DNA of 64,000 bases from positions 49,265,883 through 49,329,882 of the forward strand of contig NC_064436.1 of the NCBI RefSeq assembly GCF_023343835.1, written 5' to 3'. Numbering within the stretch: position 1 is the stretch's first letter; every line of letters begins with the position of its first letter. Of the stretch, positions 6,847 to 62,163 are shown piece after piece. The notes under the pieces are model-generated. The model saw nothing but the letters and a program-made list of their open reading frames with translations. It did not search any database and was not told the DNA's origin. This DNA comes from Lagopus muta (Eukaryota > Chordata > Aves > Galliformes > Phasianidae). The position numbers and the translations under genes are program-made.

Positions 6847-7930
6847 GGAAGCAAAATTTATGTGGTTGTGATCATTAAATTACAGTAAATGATTTGCCCA
6901 CAAGAGAGAAAGAGCCATGGTTTAAAGTGGAAAAGCTGAGGAAGGGGAGCTGCATCACAGCCAGATGTAGTAGCCTGAAAACCCTTTCAGGGAGCTTCAC
7001 TTTCGCCCTGGCTGGGGCATTTAGGGAATCAGCCCTGTAACCTTCCTGCAGGTGAGGGCTGCCACTGTTTGCTTTTGCAACCAGAGTATTAACAACCACT
7101 TTCCAAAAGTCCAGCTTTCCCATCTGCCCTGCTGCAGCAATTACCCACAGGTAGAAAACTGGGGAGTAAAAACATACTGCTCCACCAAGCAGCAGCACTC
7201 ACAATTTTTGCTTTGTCTCCAGAACAGCACCAACTTTCAAAAGCAAAGCTCAGCACTGGGGCAGGAGAGCCAGCTCAGTGCGGGCTGGGTGAGAAGCAGC
7301 CATACTCCTGTTAGCACACAGAACTGCTCTGCAAATGATCCACAGGTGCGAAGGGCAGGTGCAAGAGTGCCTGTCACTGGAGATTGTCCCCTTCAGTACC
7401 CAAGGCTTGCACACTCTGTGATTTCTGACAACTGCAGCTCTTTGCTTTTGTTTTTCCTGTTTGGCTGTTCTCCCACACTCTTAACATGTACCAATACTTC
7501 CTTTACGGCAATGCTAGTTTGACTGTTTAAACAGTTTTTTTGCTATAAGCTTGTCAATTCAGGATGCAAGGAAGCCTTGGTCTAACCAAGATAACAACCA
7601 AGTTTGAAGAGTTCCTTTTCACTGCTGCCATGGGACATGCCAGTCAAGCACACACAGAGGCAAAGCAGAGTTCTTCATCTCAGGTGCTATAGCAGCACGA
7701 TGCCCACATTTGCAAACCAGAACAAGAGCAGGTGAGCCATGCACCCCAAGCACCCAAGATGCATGCTCACCACTAGGAGAAAAAACTGCCATCAATGCTG
7801 CTGCTGGCTCAGCCAGCCCTGGGACAGGGCTCAGGGGAGAATTGCATTTGGTCAGGCTCAGCTTCCTGATGTGGTCTGCCACATCCCTGTGCAAACCATT
7901 GCCTTCTCACAGCGAGGAGGCAGGAGCAGA
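1..7930. other. Noncoding region, left end
   Basis: No coding exon supported on either strand. The plus strand has AATAAA at 1211-1216 after an A/T-rich stretch that resembles a 3' UTR end. By synteny the convergent neighbour of CHRNA9 here should be RBM47 on the plus strand, but no RBM47 coding sequence is recognised. Contains T runs at 2083-2098 and 6816-6838. Confidence 0.5.
6816..6838 (+). repeat. (T)23 tract
   Basis: Uninterrupted thymine run; noncoding. Confidence 0.96.
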
Positions 7931-8275
7931 GCCACAGAATCATTAAGACTGGAAAAGACCACTGTTGATCTCCAAGTCCAGCCATCAGCCCATCCACACC
8001 ATGCTCACTTACCATGCCCCTCAGCGCTACATCTACACAGTTCTTGATCACCTCCAGGGACAGTGACTCCACCACTTCCCTGGGCAGCCTGTTCCAATGC
8101 CTCACTACTCTTTCTGAGAAAAATTGTTTCCTAATATCCAACCTGAACCTCCTTTGTACAACTTGGGGCCATTCCATCTCATCCTACTACTAGTTACAAA
8201 GGAGCTGACCCCCACCCTGCTACAACCTCCCTTCAGGTAGTTGTAGAGAGCAGTGTCTCCCCTGAGTCTCCTCAA
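7931..8275 (-). mobile_element. CR1 LINE 3' end
   Basis: Starts with the CR1 tail region (CACAGAATCATTAAGACTGG) and reads, in reverse complement, into the end of the CR1 reverse-transcriptase frame ([20 protein letters not shown], then [12 protein letters not shown]). 5'-truncated, as is usual for CR1, with stops and indels. Confidence 0.9.
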
Positions 8276-25088: not shown

Positions 25089-25639
25089 CTAAGCTGCTTT
25101 CCCAATGATAAGCACGCTTATAAAAAACACCATGATAAAAAAAATCCACATGAAAAACCTGTCCATCACCTTTGCCACTTTCTTCCACTCAATTCCTTTA
25201 GCCCGGTTTGCTTTATGGTCTCGAACACAATTAGCAATATACTCAATATTTTTAATCAGCATTTTGTAACAAGAACAGCAATTAACATTCTCCCTATCAT
25301 TTTCACCATGAACTCCAAAGCTTTTATTCAAATTTCCATTCAGATTGTCCTTGAGATCACTATCATCATTTCCATTGGAAAGGTGACTCTTTCCATCTGC
25401 CCCCCGACACATGTCACCGCCCTCTAACCTGTGTTCTTGTTCTTTCTCTCTTCGTGGACTTGTACAATTTTCACCCACATCATAAACAAAAAAAATTTTT
25501 GACATATAGTCCAAGATTACCACTCTGGCCCACTGTGGAACAGGCTTTGCTTCTGAGCCACAGTGATGTACATTCATTATAATGATTGTCAGCGCAGTGG
25601 AGGCTGTGATCATGGTCATAGTTGCTATGTAATACTTGC
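25089..25639 (-). CDS. CHRNA9: CHRNA9 coding exon 5 (TM3, cytoplasmic loop, TM4, stop)
   Basis: Begins with the completion of the Gly codon and KYYIA of TM3, then a long polar intracellular loop, then TM4 ([12 protein letters not shown]) and the stop at 25091-25089. The acceptor is TTCCAG before 25639. The intron just upstream carries a 27-base G run (C run in the sense of the gene) at 25739-25765, about 100 bases from this acceptor. Confidence 0.97.
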
Positions 25640-28600
25640 CTGGAACACAAAATAAAATTATATTAAAGATGCTATCCACATTTTTAAAAAAAAAAATCAT
25701 TGCAGAAATAGCAGAGTGACAAAGGGGTTGGAAAGGACGGGGGGGGGGGGGGGGGGGGGGGGGGGACACTGAGAGAAAGCAGATCAAGGCTAGGTCCTGT
25801 CTGCTTAGATAGATGGGTAAGGAAGGTACTCAAATACAGCAAGTCATAATGTGAGTGGGAATTAATTCTGGTGAGAAAGTTAGCATAACTAAAAATAAAT
25901 ACCAAGTAAATGTAAAGAGCTTCAGTTTAACTGTACAAATACCATGCATACTTCAAGTATTTCACTAGATTATTATTTTTTTCTTAACAAACGCAGCCAA
26001 CATTTATCTTCCCAAAAGCCATACATGACACAGTCAATCCGACATTACAGCCCCGATTTCAATAAGCCATGCTTAAGGACAAAGCATGTAAAGCTCACCT
26101 ATCAGAGGTACGTTTTCAGAGGGAGGCATAATCTCTGCAACCATCAGCTGGAACACAGTCAGAGCAAGAAGAACTGTAACACCTAGAGACACTTTTTCTC
26201 CAGAGTCTGCGGGGAGATAGAATCCCAGTGGAGCGAGGAAAGAGATCAAAATGCAAGGAAGAAGAAGATTAAATATGTAGAAAGATGATTTCCTTTTCAA
26301 AATCAGCGTAAACGTTACGTCTGGATAAGGCTCAGAGCAGCAGCCGTAAGTGATTACATTCTTAACCGCTGGCATACCATGAATCTCCCATTCCACGTCT
26401 TCTACAAAGTCAGAAAGGTCACCACTATCAAGAGAATTGATGATGTCTACCTGATTACCATTATAGGTCCAGGAACCAAACGTAAGGTTGCACTGCTGGC
26501 TGTCAAAAGGAAAATAAGATACATCCACTACACATGAGCTTTTTGTGATAGCAGGAGCATCCCAAGTGATTTTTCCATCATATCTCAACACAACATTAGT
26601 ATTCACAGGTTCTGAAAAGTCATCATCAGCCCTAAAAGACAGAAAAGCAACAGTCAAGATTGACATGCAGCAATTCAGTGCATGGGTTGGGGAAAGCCAG
26701 GGGGAGATCCTGGTTTACAGCATTAAAAGCATGCTTCTGAAAATGTGTCATTTATTCATATTGATTATTACTAGAAACTTGCTATATTACTTACTACATT
26801 ATTTACAAGTACCAGACCCCATTAGTGCCAAACATCAGTGAAACTAAATTGTACTGTATTTCTTGGCTATTGCTTCTTCAAACTTGACCTCAAACAGGGC
26901 ACAGTGAAATACCAGATTCATTAAAAAATCTGCTGCTCATTACTGGCCAGGGAGAGCAGACAAGATATGGAGCCTTTGCCCTTCTGTAGGCACCATCTTC
27001 CAGAGCTCTTCAGCAGCCTCTGCAGAAAGCATTTAAGATTGACAATGTTCAAAACTCAGTGCAAACAAGAAATTCACCACAGCTCCGCTATGTAGCTGGA
27101 TCAATTGCCAAACTATTTTATCTGTGGCTCTTGGGATGATTAATAATAAACATTAAGACAACAAATATATTCCCCACTAAGGTAAAATGAAGTTCAGGTT
27201 CCATGAGTCATTTCTTCTTCTACCCTCTCCCTTACACCCATTCAAGATGATTCTCTCTGGCCTCACTCACTTGTTATAGAGGACAATATCTGGCCTCCAG
27301 ACCAAATTGCTTGGAATTCTGATAGAATCCAATCCATCATATTTATCCTTATCCCATTTGAGGTATGCATCATACCAGCTTTGTCGAATCCATAAGTAAG
27401 CTGTTAAAATTTGGTTCCTTTCATCCTGCATAAAAAATACAAAAATATTTCTTGTTCAAGGTGAAAAAAGTACATTCTAGATACTGACAGCATTTGTTGT
27501 ACAGCTTTAAAGCAGTGCCCAAAGCAGGCCTCAATACTGACAGATACATACGTACATATAGTGTACGTATGGGGAGCTTCTCTAGGCAATCCTCTTCGAC
27601 TCTCTTGTTCAAACCTCCCTCTCAAAAGGAGTTATTTTCCCTGCACCCTCCCTAGCTTTAAATACAGTTACCTAATGTTTTCGTATCTCTAAAAAGTTCC
27701 TTTTTCCAGGGTCAGAATAACAGCAGATTTAGCTTAAAACTCTCTGAAAGCTTGAGGTCTTGAAGTTGTAATTCACAAGTCAGAAGTGATTTTCCTTTTC
27801 CCTTCCAGACAAATTTTCTTTTGCCTTAGAAGTGTATCTGTTAAACTAAGTTTATAAAAAGTTACTGGAAGCTAAAATAGGAGGTTTAAGGAGAAATTAA
27901 TTGCTCCTTAGAAAAAACACTCCCTCTTTCTATTTAGTAGCAAAAGTTGCCTGAAAGCTGGAATACAAACACTTAACTGATACTACAAAAAAAAAGTCTT
28001 AACAATTCAGCAGCTATAAGTTTGTAGACACGTAATGGAAGTTGTACAACTGCAATCAGATAAGACTATTAAGAACTGCAGAACATGACCCTTGTGAGGA
28101 ATCGTTACTGAAGTTGCCACAGCAGTATGCAAGCTGCTTTCCTACTTCAAACAAGTTAGCAGTTGGTACACTGCTGCACATTTTCAGAAAAATAGAACTG
28201 TATTTTTACTCACCATGTCTTTAATTTGGGACAATGTTATCTGAAGGGTAACATTCAGCACTTTATCTGTGTCTTCCACTGGTCTTAGAGCATTTGAATA
28301 GTCTTCAAACAGTTCATTGAACAGCATCTGAGCATATTTCCCTTTGGCTGATTCTACAGCTAGATAATAGATTTTTTCAGTATATCAGATTAAGCACTGA
28401 GCAATATTAGCAACCATCCCCTTCCAATAGCTTCCAAATGCTAAATATAGCAGTTGCTATATTTATCATTCAAATACTGTAGAATATAATTTAGTGCAGA
28501 AACAGAGCAAACCTGATAAAGTTGTTCAAATAAAGACAACATTCACCTGTAGTAAATGAATAGCTAGCCCTAGCTTTTCACACCTACATGAAAAAAAATA

Positions 28601-29964: not shown

Positions 29965-30690
29965 TCATCAAAATAAATAGATAAATTCAATAACCACGGA
30001 TTCACTAAGATCATCTAGTCCAACCATCCACCTGCTATTAATATTGCCCTCTAAACCATGTCCATTAAGTAATACATCTACCCTTTCCTTGAAAACCTCT
30101 AGGGACAGTGACTTCACCACTCCAAGCAACTTTTCCAGCACCTGGCCAGTCCTTCTAAGAATAAATTTTTCATAATGTCCAACCTGAACACCGCCCTGCT
30201 GCAACTTGAGGCCATTCCCTTTAGTCCTATGCCTAGTTATGCAGGAGAAGAGGCTGTTGCCCACCTTGCCAGAGTCTCCTTTCAGGCAGCTGTAGAGCAG
30301 TAGGATCCGCCCCGAACCTTCTCTTCTCCAGACTGAACAATCCCATTTCCTCAGCTGCTCCCCATAAGGGCCTGTGCTCCAGACCACTCACCAGCTTCAT
30401 TGCTCTACTCTGAACATGCTCCAGGGTCTCAATGTCTTTCTCATAGTGAGGGGCCCAAAACTGCACACACTACTCAAGTTGCAGGCTCATCACAGCTGAG
30501 TAGAGGGGGACGATCACCTCTCTGTTCCTCTTGGCTACCCTATTTCTGATACAAGCCAGGATGCTGCTGGCCACCTGGGTACACTGCAGGACCATGTTCA
30601 GCTGAGCATCAACCAAAGCCCCCAGACCCTTTTTTTCCCCACACAGCTTTCCAGCCACTCTGCCACAAGCCTGTAATATTGCACAGGGAT
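29965..30690 (-). mobile_element. CR1 LINE 3' end with RT C-terminal coding remnant
   Basis: Begins near the CHRNA9 upstream region. Reverse complement reads the end of CR1 ORF2: the KGLGALVDAQLN, ILACIRNRVAKRNREVIVPL and YSAV segments near 30480-30650, then the usual degraded 3' section with EKLLGVVKSLSLEVFKERVD. Several frame breaks. Confidence 0.9.
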
Positions 30691-41273: not shown

Positions 41274-41279
41274 TTTATT
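41274..41279 (-). terminator. Candidate TYRA polyadenylation signal
   Basis: AATAAA on the minus strand about 229 bases past the TYRA stop codon, the first such hexamer downstream. It implies a short 3' UTR of about 250 bases. Confidence 0.5.
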
Positions 41280-41507: not shown

Positions 41508-42424
41508 CTATGACTTGTCTGGGAACACACACGGCCACCTTGCCAGGCGAGTGACATCCTCCCTGGGATAACCGCAACGTGCAGCAGTGATGATAGTCCC
41601 CAGCCAGAAGGAGTGCACACCGTACTGCTCCAGGGGCAGCCCCAGCAGCCTAAGGGTCCACCTGAGAACAGTCAGGAAACCCCTCTTCGTTACAGGCATG
41701 TTGTCCCTGTGCACAAAGAGCGGCCCTTCCAGCCTTGAACGCACAGCCACAAAGCTCCGGAGGGCCAGGACAGGGCACACCCACGGCTCTCCTGACAGAG
41801 CAAGGCTGATGATGGGTCTCTCCCGGTCGACAGGAGAGTTACGCAGGCGAAACACCACTCTGCCTTCTGTCACCTGCATGTCCCTCAGGTAGAGCAGTTC
41901 AGGCTGCAGTACATTACGGTGCTTTGCCACCACCTCTCTTATTCGAAGTGCACCAAAAAAAGCCACTGTGAACAATGCACGGAACAGTAAGCATTCATAA
42001 CGGGATACACACACAGATTCCAGAGCTCCTAAAAGAGATCGTAAGACCTCAATTGTTATAGGAGCATATTTTTCCCTCAGGATGCCCACTTGACGTCTCA
42101 ACCCCATTACCATCAAACGGGTTATAGCATCTTCCAGAGGGTCAGAATTACCAGACAGTCTTGATAAGTAAGACAAGGCTGCCACATACACCAATGTTTT
42201 TGAGGAGGAGTAAAGAGACTCCACAGCTAAAAATCCCCTAACTTGATCCTCTGGAATGGGCCAGGCTGCAGGCATTCCCATGACCTTCCTAAAGGCGAGA
42301 AATTTCTTCAGCCCCTCAAGGTAGGCTTGCCAAAGCCTAACATCCCCCGAGCACTCCAATAACAACAATGTCTTCAGAGGCTGAGGTCCCAGTGAGTGTT
42401 TCCAAGGAGAATCAGCCTCCCGTC
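41508..42424 (-). CDS. TYRA coding exon 2 (recombinase domain)
   Basis: The acceptor is CTTGTAG just before 42424, followed by two bases that complete the split codon, then an open frame of 305 codons. It contains the whole recombinase-like region. The start shared with TYRB (LGPxPLKTL) lies before the first long-frame residue, so coding extends upstream to the acceptor. Confidence 0.88.
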
Positions 42425-43079
42425 CTACAAGACAGGATTCACATTAGCACAACCAGAACAAGCACACCACCCAAACTGCAATAAAGACAGCATCCCACTG
42501 TGCGAGGCACATCACTTGAGTGATGCCCCAGCAGTTTATCTGACTATAGACACTGAGCTCACACATAGCTAAACCCTGAGCGGTTAACGAGACATTCTTC
42601 AGGTGAGAAGGATTATAAGGAACACCTGACGCATCTCAGGCACAACATCTGGCAGTGCTCCAGTAATTCAGAGCAGTACCAGAGAAAGTAAACAAAAGCT
42701 CAGCTAAAACCAAGCCTCGCGAGCATGGTCTGCAGACCGTCTAACCAAGAAGGGCACGCAGTACCTTCCTGCCAGAAGGCAGAAAAACCCTTCGAGAAAA
42801 ACGAAGGCGAGAGCCGCCGCAGGCAGAGCACAGCGGGTGCTTTGCCGCTGCCACACGTGCTCACCTACCCGCTGCCGCGCCGAGCTCCCCGCACCGCCCC
42901 GCCGCCTGGGTCCTGCACGCGGTCCTCTGCCCCGTTCTGCACGGCGATGCAACAGCCGCCTGTCCGGAGAGGCCCAGCTTCAGCCACTCCACGCCCGGCT
43001 CCTGGGCCAACAGGGTCAGCATCTCCCAGAAAGGTGAAGCGGCCGCAGCCCCACTCGCAGCGCGGCCACTGCACGACAT
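41508..43079 (-). CDS. Tyrosine-recombinase-like protein, divergent pair member TYRA
   Basis: Two exons, 43079-42869 and 42424-41508, joined by a phase-1 GT-AG intron, give 1128 nt and 375 residues with no internal stop. The second exon is a tyrosine recombinase of the XerD/DIRS/Ngaro type: a helical core-binding segment (about 100-170, with WQAYLEGLKKFLAF), then the catalytic fold. Arg231 in FFGALR and His341 in VHSFW are kept. The H-x-x-R arginine is Trp344, the expected lysine of the S-K-T-D hairpin reads S-P-V-D, and the protein ends eight residues after the RW motif (366-367), before the usual tyrosine nucleophile. It should therefore bind but not cut DNA, if it binds at all. Exon 1 lies in a CpG island and is Ala/Gly-rich, with an SPFWE motif shared with TYRB. 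A single-copy host gene derived from a transposon is the best reading. Gene model by eye; exon 1 is less certain than exon 2. Confidence 0.8.
42869..43079 (-). CDS. TYRA coding exon 1
   Basis: 70 codons plus one base from the ATG at 43079-43077 to the donor GTAGGT at 42868. SPFWE (residues 15-19) followed by LLAQEPGVEWL aligns with SPFWE and LLGREPGMEWL in TYRB exon 1. The donor context (G then GTAGGT) is the same in both genes. A second GT (GTGAGC) four bases further in would put exon 2 out of frame. The parallel with TYRB makes this exon much more likely than its GC-rich composition alone would. Confidence 0.72.
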
Positions 43080-43584
43080 GACGAGCGCTGTACTTCAGCC
43101 ACAGCAGCACGAAGTCAGTTCGCTCATCAGCGCGGGCTGTTTAATAGCCACGCTGCAGCCCGCGGCGCCCGCCGATTGGGCACTCGCAGCAAAGCGGGGA
43201 GCGCACAGTGCTGCCATTGACTGTCCGGCCGGAGTGGGCGGGGCGGAAGGTGCGAAGGGGCCGTGAGCCGATTCCTGTACTCAGAAGGGCGCTCTTCGTT
43301 AGCCCTTAATTGCGGTCTAACGAGGCGATAAGTAGCAGATAACACTTCCTTGGCGCTTCCTACGAGATGAGGCCCGCCCGGCGGCAGGAAGCGGCCCGAG
43401 GTGCGAACTGCCCTCCGCGCCGAGACCTCCCCAGCGTCCTCCCCCGGCACGGATTCCGCGATTGGCTGAGAGAAGGGCACGGCTGAGAGACAGTCCTTGT
43501 CATTGGCCGGGAGTTTGGGACAGGGTACAAAATGGTGCAACGGGCGCGTCGTTGTGCTGCGTTCGGGACGTCGCTTTGTTGGCG

Positions 43585-43759
43585 ATGTGGCGCTCTGAGA
43601 GTGGGGTCGAGCCGGCTGCTACCAGCCCTTCGCCGTTCTGGGAGATCCTCGCCTTGCTGGGGCGAGAACCCGGCATGGAGTGGCTGCTGCGTAGTCCAAA
43701 TGGCTGCACTGGGTGGCTGGGTTCAAGCGGACAGGAGCCTGGTGGCGGGGACGGAGTGG
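43585..43759 (+). CDS. TYRB coding exon 1
   Basis: 58 codons plus one base. The ATG at 43585 is the first ATG in this frame and lies as far from the SPFWE motif as the TYRA start does (16 versus 14 residues before it). The open frame continues upstream to about 43462 without an ATG. The donor GTAGGT at 43760 is identical to that of TYRA. Confidence 0.7.
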
Positions 43760-45127
43760 GTAGGTGTAGTGCTGAGGGGGTTGTGCTTGGGGGGGCTGCA
43801 TGGTGTGGCCGAGTGAAGTGGGAGGTTGGCATACTCTTTCTTTGGGCTCTGACCCCTGTGTAGGAAGCCTGCTGGGAGCTGCATGCACTAAGAATTTATT
43901 TGTAATATGTGTTTTTGTCACTTCCAGACTCTTGTGCGTGTTCATCTTAACCTGGGGTTGCAGAACGTTGGGGTGTTGTTCTGAGTCCCTAGCTAGGCTT
44001 GGCGTATTGCTCTAAGAAAAGTCATGGGGTGTTCTTACACTTAACCCTTCATTCTTGTCACTCTACAGGAGAGTCCTAAAAATGCAAGGGACATTCTTGT
44101 AAAGTTTTTGTCGTGTTTTTCTTTGTTTGTTTGTTTGTTTTGTTTTCTTCAGAGAAGCTCAAACAATAGTTGCAGGGTGTTGTAAGGAAAGAAGCTTTTG
44201 TCTGCTTGTCAGTGAGACTGCCTTGCTTACCATTGCTAATCTTGGTTTCTTTCTGCAGATGAGCTCAGCCATGTTTCTGAGAAGCATCCCTTAGGTCCTT
44301 GGCCCCTGAAGACTCTTATGTTACTGGAGGGCTCAAGAAGTAACCAGCAATGGCAGCTCTACTGTGAGGGCCTGAAGAATTTTCTTGCCTTTAGAGAATA
44401 CATGGCACTGCGTGCAGTTTGGCCAGTTCCAGTGAGTCAAGTGAAAGGCTTCTTGGCCATCATGGAGTGCCAGGATCTGCCTCCCACAAAAATAATAATG
44501 TACATGGAAGGACTATCTTTCATCTCCAAAATGGTAGATCATCCTGATCCTCTTCAAGACCCTGCTGTCTGTCACATGATATCAAGATTGAAATGTAAGA
44601 CTGCTCTTTCAAAAGATAAATACTCTCCTGTAACAATTGAAGTGTTAAGATCTCTCCTGGGAACTCTGGAGTCTGTGTGTAGCTCTCCTTACGAGTGTAT
44701 ATTGTTCCGTGCCTTATTTACTGTGGCTTTCTGGGGGGCACTACGCACAGAAGAAATAGTGGCAAATCACAAAAATGTAGTGCAGCCAAAGCTCTTGTAC
44801 TTGAGTGATCTCCAGCTGACTGGCTGGAGTGCAAACCTTTGCTTGCATACATCTCAAATAGGTCAAGAAAGGTCTTTGGTCCAACTGGCACTTTCTAGTG
44901 AGATGTGGGTATGTCCTATTAAAGCTCTCCGTGTCTATGTGGCAGCACGGCCACGGGGAGAGGGTCTTCTCTTTGTGCATTTGGATAGTAGACCTGTCAC
45001 AAAGAGGGAGTTCCTAACAGTCTTCCGACGTGCTCTTGGACTTGCTGGACATCCTCCAACTCATTATGGTGTGCATTCCTTCTGGCTGGGGGCTCTTGTA
45101 ACAGCGTGGTCTTCATGGGTATTCTGA
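43585..45127 (+). CDS. Tyrosine-recombinase-like protein, divergent pair member TYRB (C-terminus frameshifted)
   Basis: Exons 43585-43759 and 44259-45127 join through a phase-1 GT-AG intron to give 347 residues. Same architecture as TYRA: exon 1 with SPFWE (residues 17-21), a junction leading to LGPWPLKTL, a core-binding segment with WQLYCEGLKNFLAF, and a catalytic fold with Arg221 (FWGALR) and His331. As in TYRA, the second box arginine is Trp (334) in VHSFWLG. The lysine position is Gln. In the best block of 68 residues I count 51 identical to TYRA. The frame then shifts at about 45113-45117, giving a stop at 45125-45127; the TYRA-like frame continues at 45117-45161, to a stop just after an ARW motif. 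Codons are more A/T-rich than in TYRA. Either a functional truncated gene or a young pseudogene; the remaining frame is fully open, so I favour expressed or recently lost. Confidence 0.75.
44259..45127 (+). CDS. TYRB coding exon 2 (recombinase domain)
   Basis: The acceptor TTTCTTTCTGCAG ends at 44258, a good pyrimidine tract. The exon starts with two bases finishing the split codon, as in TYRA, then reads open to the premature stop at 45125-45127. Confidence 0.83.
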
Positions 45128-45421
45128 TGAAGCCATTGACAGAATCGCAAGGTGGAGATGAATTAGTTGGAAGAGGACATAATTACAGCTTTCCGTTGGA
45201 CATCTGTGGTAATGGATATTTTCTGCAATGCAGAGATGTTTTCTACTGAATATAGTTTCGGTATCCTGCTAAGTTGTAGAAAAGGAGTAACTACTACTTT
45301 TCTCACCCAAGATGGCTTTGAGACTGTCTTGGTTTTAAAACTTTTGTGACTTGTGGGTCCATTGGTATGTATCCATACAGCATATTTGTGCTGGCTGTAT
45401 TTTAACCTTATGTAATTTTTT

Positions 45422-45427
45422 ATTAAA
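45422..45427 (+). terminator. Candidate TYRB polyadenylation signal
   Basis: ATTAAA about 295 bases after the TYRB stop, followed by a T-rich stretch and GT-rich DNA (45431-45475), as downstream elements usually are. A canonical AATAAA occurs at 45557-45562 as an alternative. Confidence 0.45.
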
Positions 45428-46994
45428 CTGCCTTTTCTTTTCATAAACTCTTCTGGTCTTTTTGTTGTGTGCTGGTCAAAGAGTGCAATTCTGCACAACA
45501 GTGACATGTTAACTTGGTACAGGCATGCATCCCATTTACAGCCTGATGGAATGAGAAATAAAGCTGGCTGAATTTGAAGCTAAGCTGTGGATATGAAGAG
45601 AGTTCAGCTGCTAACTTAACAGAGAAACTGATGTTGTCCAGGCTGCAGTTGCATAGCAGCTGCGTCCAACTTAAGCAGCTGCTGGTGTTGTCTCAGTTTC
45701 TATGTATGTGGGCCTGCCCCTTGACAATTAGATCCTTCCCTGCACCCTTCTCAACTGTATCAGACTGAGATACTGAGTAAAAGAAGCCTTTAATTGAGAA
45801 GAAGCTAACCTATCAAAGGTGACCTTGCTGAGTTCAAAGGATCCCTTGTAGCAGAGAACATTTGTTAAGAGATGGCTAACATAAATAACCCACCTCTGCT
45901 AATTGGGGTACTTCTTAGATTTGTCAGTGATTAAATCACATATCTGAGAAGCACCTTCATAATGTTGAGTGTCACCTTCTATTATACCAAAGGCATTTGA
46001 AGTAATGGCATCCCTTGCAGTATTTCATATCAGTGCTTTCAGGACCTACCCAGGTTGGCTTCTCTGTGTACCTACTTAGTATTGCATTTTTCAGTATTCC
46101 AAGAGGAATTTCAGGTACAGCAAACTGTTACTCTGCTCTACATACAGAGCACATCACAATAGAAAGCCATAATTTAATAATTCCCTGCTGTGCATCTGGT
46201 AGATCCCCTGCTACAGCTTTGCAGAATGAGCATGGTGTGGTGCTGACCCCGTATTCCAGTCATCTTGCCTGTATTTATGAATAGTAAGTGGTGTCAGACT
46301 TCTCCAGATCTCCCTGTTGGACTGCAAGGGAATGAGTTAAAATACCCGGTACTCCCAAAGAACACATCTTTCATGTTGTTCCCATGTTTGTTTTTATTTC
46401 CCTGGGAACCACCTACATAGGAAATTTGCTGCCTTCCTAGCTGACATCTGACAAGGCATGTGCGGTGACTGTTACAGCTCCCACAGCCCATTGGGAGGTG
46501 CTCCCGTGGCCAGAGGAGTGGGTAGGAGGTGATGTTTGAAGGGTTAGGAGCGGTCAGACCTAGCTGGGCTTGAAAGACTCGAGGGAAGGCTTTCATAGGC
46601 TACAGGGATTGTCATCACCAGAGTCTCCAGCACTGAGTTAGATCTGCCTAATGGGCAAAGCAGTACACACAGAAAATGTACCAGATTCAAGCCATTTGCT
46701 GAGAGGCCAAATATCATCTCACAGCCTACTACTGTATGGATGGAGTTTGGTTTGGGGCTTTTCTTCATACAACCCTGTTGAAGCCTTTTGGCAGGTGTTT
46801 CCGGTGCAGAAAGAAAACAGGTCCCTGTGGTTAGGCTGGTTGGTTTATCTCGGCTCGCTCACCAACCAGCACTGTACATCAGCGGCTCTGCCACATTATC
46901 TTAACCCCTGTGGAAAACTCCAGAGTCAGGAGAGTATTTTAACACCCAGACCTAATTTCACAACATAATGTTACCCAGAAAAAGTGACTTTAAA

Positions 46995-61587: not shown

Positions 61588-62163
61588 TCAGAAGATCTTG
61601 CACTCGTTAATGGAGAAGAGTTTCCGCCTGTTCTGCCTCTTGGCTTGATTGACTGCTGTCCGCACAGCATACTCAAACACCTGCTGCACACCGCGGTTGC
61701 TGAGGGCTGAGCACTCCAAGTAGCCTTTGGCTCGCACATCCTGGGCGAGCCGCTTGCCGTCCATCGAGCTGATGCAGGAGGAGTGGTAGGGCCCCGATTC
61801 ACGCTGGTCGGTCTGCGTGGCCACTACCAACACAGGGACGCGGGGCAGATGGTTGCGGATCTCGCCAATCCATTTGCTCCTCAGGTTCAGGAAGGAGCTG
61901 TGGTTTGCCACAGAGTAGCACATTAACACCACATCTGCCTGCTGGTAGGACAGGGGGCGAATGCCTTTGAAGGCATCGCTTCCAGATGTGTCCCAAAGGC
62001 CTAGGCTGATCTGTACGCCATCCATGAACACATCCACTCCAGTGTTCTCATACACAGTGGGTCTGTAGTTGTCTGGAAAAGTGTCAGAGATGAAACGTAC
62101 CAAGAGAGATGTTTTTCCCACTGCAGAGTCTCCCACCAGCACGCACTTGATAGAATCCAACAT
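61588..62163 (-). CDS. RHOH: Rho-related GTP-binding protein RhoH, single coding exon
   Basis: A haematopoietic, GTPase-deficient Rho protein that acts as an adaptor in T-cell receptor signalling with ZAP70 and LCK at the membrane. 191 residues, the usual length. Visible: the P-loop GDSAVGKT (11-18) with Ser13 where active Rho proteins have Gly12; the switch I region with [14 protein letters not shown]; the switch II start DTSGSD, with Ser62 at the position of catalytic Gln61 (Asn in human RHOH); TQTD in place of N/TKxD; the guanine-binding CSAL motif; a basic tail; and the prenylation box CKIF at the end. Both substitutions are family features that keep the protein GTP-bound. The ATG at 62163 matches the family start; the frame upstream has no ATG. 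The coding region is uninterrupted, and upstream exons are noncoding. Confidence 0.97.

Follow-up and report, generated by a model that had tools for sequence, protein, structure and literature searches.

A divergent pair of genes located between CHRNA9 and RHOH in the genome of Lagopus muta very probably descends from the tyrosine recombinase (YR) of a retrotransposon, has lost the catalytic residues of that enzyme, and serves some noncatalytic function. The pair lies within a stretch of 64,000 nucleotides (contig NC_064436.1, positions 49,265,883 to 49,329,882 of the forward strand), hereafter called the window, and all coordinates count from its first letter; positions 41508 and 45127 are the stop-codon ends of the two genes. 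The minus-strand gene (43079–41508) encodes 375 amino acids, the same length as the Lagopus record P0001, and the recombinase part of its protein is 98% identical to Lagopus leucura LOC122180264. The plus-strand gene (43585–45127) encodes 347 amino acids. We infer from the sequence, and from the matching record P0001, that both genes have two coding exons joined across a single GT-AG intron of phase 1 at a homologous position. The structures bear out the original prediction, made from the letters of the window alone, of two multi-exon genes diverging across one CpG island.

Fold and ancestry of the encoded proteins

The window proteins yielded no profile match in Pfam, NCBIfam, or PHROGs at E ≤ 10. 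When 30 family members were scanned against Pfam at this threshold, one of them reached Phage_int_SAM_1 (E 0.23), and DUF3504 was absent from the four families listed. A profile of the family found Cre in the PDB at E 0.37, which is not significant alone. The profile search called for by the original prediction thus came back empty at this level, and its outcome was overturned by comparison of folds and of profiles with profiles. Predicted models compared with the PDB contain both a core-binding and a catalytic domain and match the tyrosine recombinases Cre and XerD (Foldseek E 2e-11), in agreement with the XerD/DIRS/Ngaro-type fold that had been proposed. In addition, an hhalign comparison with intact YR-retrotransposon recombinases of frogs and lizards gave E 3.2e-51 over 297 columns. 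Two further leads were set aside, namely weak matches to three chains of Vacuolar protein 8 (E 0.05–0.19) in a single-sequence PDB search and three pattern matches in an IMG/VR scan, among which there was no relative.

The intact relatives indicate the kind of element from which the genes may have come. With the frog recombinase P0084 as query, 477 proteins matched at E ≤ 1e-10, and the named ones within the best 120 belong to frogs, a newt, and lizards. Among these relatives, P0174 (Podarcis) has a reverse transcriptase domain (RVT_1) in front of the recombinase, P0186 has a reverse transcriptase domain just under the Pfam cut-off, and P0145 (Leptodactylus) has a GDSL hydrolase domain behind the recombinase (E 3.4e-5, under the cut-off). 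A passage of PMC9210276 describes an SGNH hydrolase after the recombinase for amphibian Ngaro-like elements. On the strength of these domains and this precedent, the source would be a YR retrotransposon, perhaps a Ngaro-like one. In a midpoint-rooted tree built from 13 family rows and 28 transposon rows, the family rows group as a clade of their own (100/100) next to the transposon rows.

Catalytic residues and the first exon

To compare the active-site positions, we aligned 23 family rows, consisting of the two window proteins plus 21 taken from the 84 family proteins, together with 28 of the 120 transposon rows. Neither the catalytic Lys nor the nucleophilic Tyr is present in any of the 23 family rows, whereas both are present in all 28 transposon rows. 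Of the other catalytic positions, box I Arg persists in 22 of the 23 family rows, box II retains its His in 20 and box III its Trp in 19, and the second (box II) Arg occurs in one. Among the 77 of 84 family proteins that reach the box II Arg position, 71 have Trp there and four have Cys, while Gln and Arg occur once each; for the transposon proteins, the Arg is found in 115 of the 117 (of 119) in which the motif pattern could be located. Moreover, the family proteins stop where the tyrosine helix would start. Judged by these residues, the R-K-H-R-(H/W)-Y set is broken and the pair no longer encodes a recombinase, such that the original description of a domesticated recombinase holds for descent and fails for a working enzyme. 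Because the loss is common to snakes, turtles, crocodile, and birds, it most likely represents a single event in their common ancestor. The minus-type protein P0010 of the gull Chroicocephalus ridibundus reads HSFR where 71 of 77 proteins carry Trp, which is either a reversion or an error.

Two other features, the exon-1 hairpin and the loss of positive charge, appear from sequence comparison to be novel with respect to the transposon enzyme. Exon 1 of the Lagopus orthologue P0001 is predicted to form helices at residues 16–25 and 31–43, with a predicted local distance difference test (pLDDT) score of about 79–91, followed by a predicted disordered linker at residues 45–77. The corresponding motif FWxxLxLLxxEPGMxWL is encoded at 42948–43079 and 43585–43758. 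Of the 29 family proteins in which at least 50 residues precede the recombinase part, 24 carry it, and these range from snake to bird; none of the 120 transposon proteins, 37 of them at least 340 residues long, does so. A search of exon 1 alone against Pfam matched no family. Mean net charge is +16.2 in the transposon rows (28 rows, range +8 to +28), −0.8 in crocodile, turtle, and snake rows (6 rows), −0.1 in bird plus rows (8 rows), and +8.6 in bird minus rows (9 rows). The value is zero or below in all six crocodile, turtle, and snake rows and in six of the eight bird plus rows.

Duplication, distribution, and selection

Inverted repeats link exon 2 with exon 2 (206 nt at 73% identity and 44 nt at 80%), exon 1 with exon 1 (59 nt at 76%), and the two splice-donor stretches (21 nt at 76%). 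Since the repeats run from exon to exon and from donor to donor, they reveal a head-to-head duplication of the gene including its first exon, as had been proposed. The paralogous proteins agree at 149 of 271 aligned exon-2 codons. We then consider copy number from a six-frame search of the 1.03-Gb Lagopus assembly (165 contigs), in which counts are lower bounds for large families. The minus protein matches two places at E ≤ 1, which are the pair, and the intact gecko recombinase P0200 finds the pair and one further match at E 0.54 that contains a stop. The pair therefore represents the only convincing matches in this genome, and the near-identical copies that would mark a young repeat are not found at this threshold. 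The third match to the gecko query (G000:C7:54271408-54271581, with one stop) may be chance or an old fossil. No transposon termini or flanking repeats were seen within 41–46 kb, again as predicted, and among the 37 listed open frames, 10 neighbors at 40.4–49.7 kb were compared with Pfam, none of which exceeded its cut-off. A single locus without mobile copies is what is expected of a domesticated host gene and, together with the open frames conserved across sauropsids, it upholds the view of the pair as host-gene-like.

The system is not confined to birds. Two protein searches, one with 84 matches and one with 77 matches for which the 7999 best candidates were scored, gave named family members in birds, crocodile, turtles, and snakes, plus a frog recombinase; unnamed clusters were placed by sequence alone. 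The family is kept as open frames in all four sauropsid groups. No mammalian name occurred among the 84 matches, the 77 matches, or the best 120 of the 477, and no palaeognath name was recognized among the matches.

The bird proteins separate into a pair of clades (100/99 and 100/100), which join as one group in both the frog-rooted tree (96/92) and the midpoint-rooted tree (93/96), and both clades are located on contigs of matching size in four species. Because each clade includes galliforms and other birds, the duplication predates that split. The crocodile protein joins the birds in the midpoint-rooted tree (90/87), and the approximately unbiased test on the frog-rooted tree does not reject placing it with the minus clade (p-AU 0.169), which makes an older duplication with loss in crocodile possible. 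No plus paralogue of crocodile or turtle was among the matches of either family search. Two close copies from the snake Erythrolamprus reginae (P0076 and P0085) reside on a same-sized contig and perhaps represent an independent duplication.

Selection was judged between the two window paralogues only. Of 271 codons, 95 differ between them at position 1, 64 at position 2, and 143 at position 3, and the difference between positions 3 and 2 is significant (p 5e-12). The NG86 method gives a nonsynonymous divergence (dN) of 0.34 and a synonymous divergence (dS) of 1.66, and thus a rough ratio of about 0.2. These values demonstrate purifying selection between the paralogues.

Function, precedents, and genomic surroundings

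The retention of the protein in birds, crocodile, turtles, and snakes argues that it probably took on a new job after the cutting chemistry was lost. We propose that the tyrosine recombinase of a Ngaro/DIRS-type YR retrotransposon was captured before the sampled sauropsid groups split, that it would then have gained a new first exon and a CpG promoter while losing catalysis, and that a head-to-head duplication would have followed in the bird lineage. The protein would work as a folded platform and leave DNA uncut. In an adaptor mode, the recombinase fold may serve as a scaffold while the exon-1 hairpin, tethered by a flexible linker, engages a partner; we give this protein–protein adaptor mode about an even chance of being correct. 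In birds, co-expression of both paralogues may follow from the divergent promoter; the minus product is basic and the plus product mostly close to neutral, and the two may either assemble as a heteromer or split DNA-facing and partner-facing roles. We consider it rather probable, taken as a whole, that a single loss of catalysis predates the split of snakes, turtles, crocodiles, and birds, that the family is an undescribed YR-derived vertebrate gene, and that birds carry it as a bidirectional, charge-diverged pair whose products maybe form a heteromer.

Several observations weigh against this proposal. The adaptor mode is based on charge and on a predicted hairpin, and the five AlphaFold models have pLDDT values of 65 to 80. 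In L. muta itself, the contrast between basic and neutral paralogues is weak, with window charges of +14 (minus) and +7 (plus). The ratio of about 0.2 is rough because the dS between paralogues is near saturation. Snakes, on a long branch, are placed nearer to birds than crocodile is (90/77, frog-rooted tree), against the species tree; vertical descent is therefore likely, though the trees do not show it cleanly. Furthermore, His or Cys replaces the box I Arg in some plus copies of birds, and the plus copy ends early by a frameshift in the galliform copies seen (the window, Numida P0046, and the unnamed cluster P0040). By these two marks, the plus gene is the weaker member of the pair. Behind the frameshift, in the region 45090–45160, a tail resembling that of other birds (HGYSDEAIDRIARWR) persists in another frame.

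A dead recombinase could also act as a transcriptional regulator, still using the C-clamp of its fold to recognize a particular DNA site. Structural precedents exist among phage proteins, namely the repressors MrpR/YopR and SroF, which have this fold in common with the bird pair, although the resemblance is structural only, and MrpR is presented in PMC10516654 as having lost its recombinase function. We regard such a regulator as possible but hold it with less confidence than the adaptor, because the charge is at or below zero in all crocodile, turtle, and snake rows and in most bird plus rows, far from the range of the transposon rows, and because MrpR and SroF are matched less strongly in fold than Cre is. 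The hairpin, the lost charge, and the end before the tyrosine helix together favor an adaptor over a sequence-specific DNA-binding regulator.

Multimeric enzymes are susceptible to interference from inactive copies, and a captured dead recombinase might defend the genome by blocking Ngaro/DIRS elements through a dominant-negative effect; intact relatives abound in frogs and some lizards. However, this is improbable for the bird genes. The C-terminal part, which exchanges between recombinase subunits, is missing, and the Lagopus genome holds no other convincing relative, yet the bird genes persist. They likewise persist in birds even though DIRS-group elements were not identified in chicken, at least in the account given in part of PMC5006616, a finding that fits a lone surviving relic. 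Still less likely is an ordinary decayed repeat or nonfunctional relic that is open by chance; the frameshifted end of the galliform plus copy would agree with this view, but the two genomic copies only, the intron position common to the paralogues, the open frames across sauropsids, and the codon-position bias (p 5e-12) do not. A still-active site-specific recombinase deserves practically no credence, for although the fold is kept along with the box I Arg, box II His, and box III Trp in most rows, Lys and Tyr are missing in all 23 rows and the box II Arg is replaced in 76 of 77 proteins, which refutes activity at the sequence level.

To our knowledge, the known domesticated tyrosine recombinase genes of vertebrates all come from Cryptons. 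Crypton-derived KCTD1b, KIAA1958, ZMYM2/3/4, QRICH1, and WOC are described, in a portion of PMC3212892, as host genes without most catalytic residues. Like these DUF3504 genes, the bird pair represents a transposon tyrosine recombinase turned host gene with catalysis lost; unlike them, it is close to YR-retrotransposon recombinases, its named family members are sauropsid, and the 30 members scanned gave no DUF3504 match. The Ngaro-like and DIRS-like YR retrotransposons of frogs and lizards share the homologous recombinase, but the bird pair differs from them in having two copies, a lost catalytic set, and a new first exon, with no termini (41–46 kb) or reverse transcriptase (10 neighboring frames) seen nearby. 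Ndc10, a yeast kinetochore/centromere protein with a history as a recombinase-like fold, is a structural match to the bird pair (4aco, Foldseek E 1.2e-4). Conserved DIRS and Ngaro protein fossils in the human genome, whose exaptation is discussed in a part of PMC9004415, are also ancient amniote remains of such elements; as described there, they are short and located in or near other genes, whereas the bird pair is full-length and open.

Domesticated, noncatalytic tyrosine recombinase genes are therefore a known kind, and the source, distribution, and architecture differ here. As the original prediction had supposed, we found no prior description of the gene pair in the openly licensed literature, although a subscription-only account could exist. 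If our proposal is true, there is a YR-retrotransposon route besides Cryptons, and the tyrosine-recombinase fold has been re-used repeatedly as a noncatalytic part; the bird pair makes this route testable in chicken or quail. The genes also mark an annotation blind spot, in that domain libraries miss them and their records are mostly uncharacterized or hypothetical.

Table 1. Positions of the gene pair, its putative control elements, and neighboring coding frames in the window
Feature	Position	Strand	Remark
Minus gene, coding exon 1	42869..43079	-	ATG and GT donor; predicted two-helix hairpin (SPFWEMLTLLAQEPGVEWL), start of disordered linker
Minus gene, coding exon 2 with stop	41508..42424	-	whole tyrosine-recombinase fold (predicted)
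Minus gene, box I Arg	codon 41945-41943	-	kept
Minus gene, box II HSFW	Trp codon 41606-41604	-
Minus protein end	after LARWPCVFPDKS	-	without nucleophilic Tyr
Plus gene, coding exon 1	43585..43759	+	hairpin motif as in minus exon 1 (SPFWEILALLGREPGMEWL)
Plus gene, coding exon 2 with stop	44259..45127	+	recombinase fold by homology; tail out of frame
Plus gene, box I Arg	codon at 44744	+
Plus gene, box II HSFW	Trp codon at 45083	+
CpG island common to both genes	about 42601..43800 (~1.2 kb)		GC 0.61-0.69, CpG observed/expected 0.80-1.04, in 400-bp steps
Candidate polyadenylation signal, minus gene	41274..41279	-	AATAAA, pattern match only
Candidate polyadenylation signal, plus gene	45557..45562	+	AATAAA, pattern match only; ATTAAA variant at 45422
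CHRNA9 exon frames	25089-25787 and 26073-26666	-	second frame: best PDB match alpha-9; first read by eye
Rho-family GTPase coding frame	61588..62163	-	Rho-family matches

The two ATG codons are separated by 505 bp with a GC content of 0.64 and a CpG observed/expected ratio of 1.06. This interval contains three ATTGG sequences (inverted CCAAT) at 43175, 43461, and 43502, which are pattern matches with no chance control. Further promoter patterns, likewise pattern matches only, comprise a GC box on each strand, one ETS-like site, and one YY1-like site.

The Rho-family GTPase neighbor is presumably RHOH, which is the name we have used for it. The minus-gene orthologue P0005 of Limosa lapponica is recorded as rho-related GTP-binding protein isoform x4, which suggests that its annotation was merged with the adjoining RHOH and serves as a hint of adjacency only. 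Two open frames on the minus strand (7809-8177 and 29968-30387), judged from their translations, we take to resemble the 3′ end of the pol gene of a CR1 long interspersed nuclear element.

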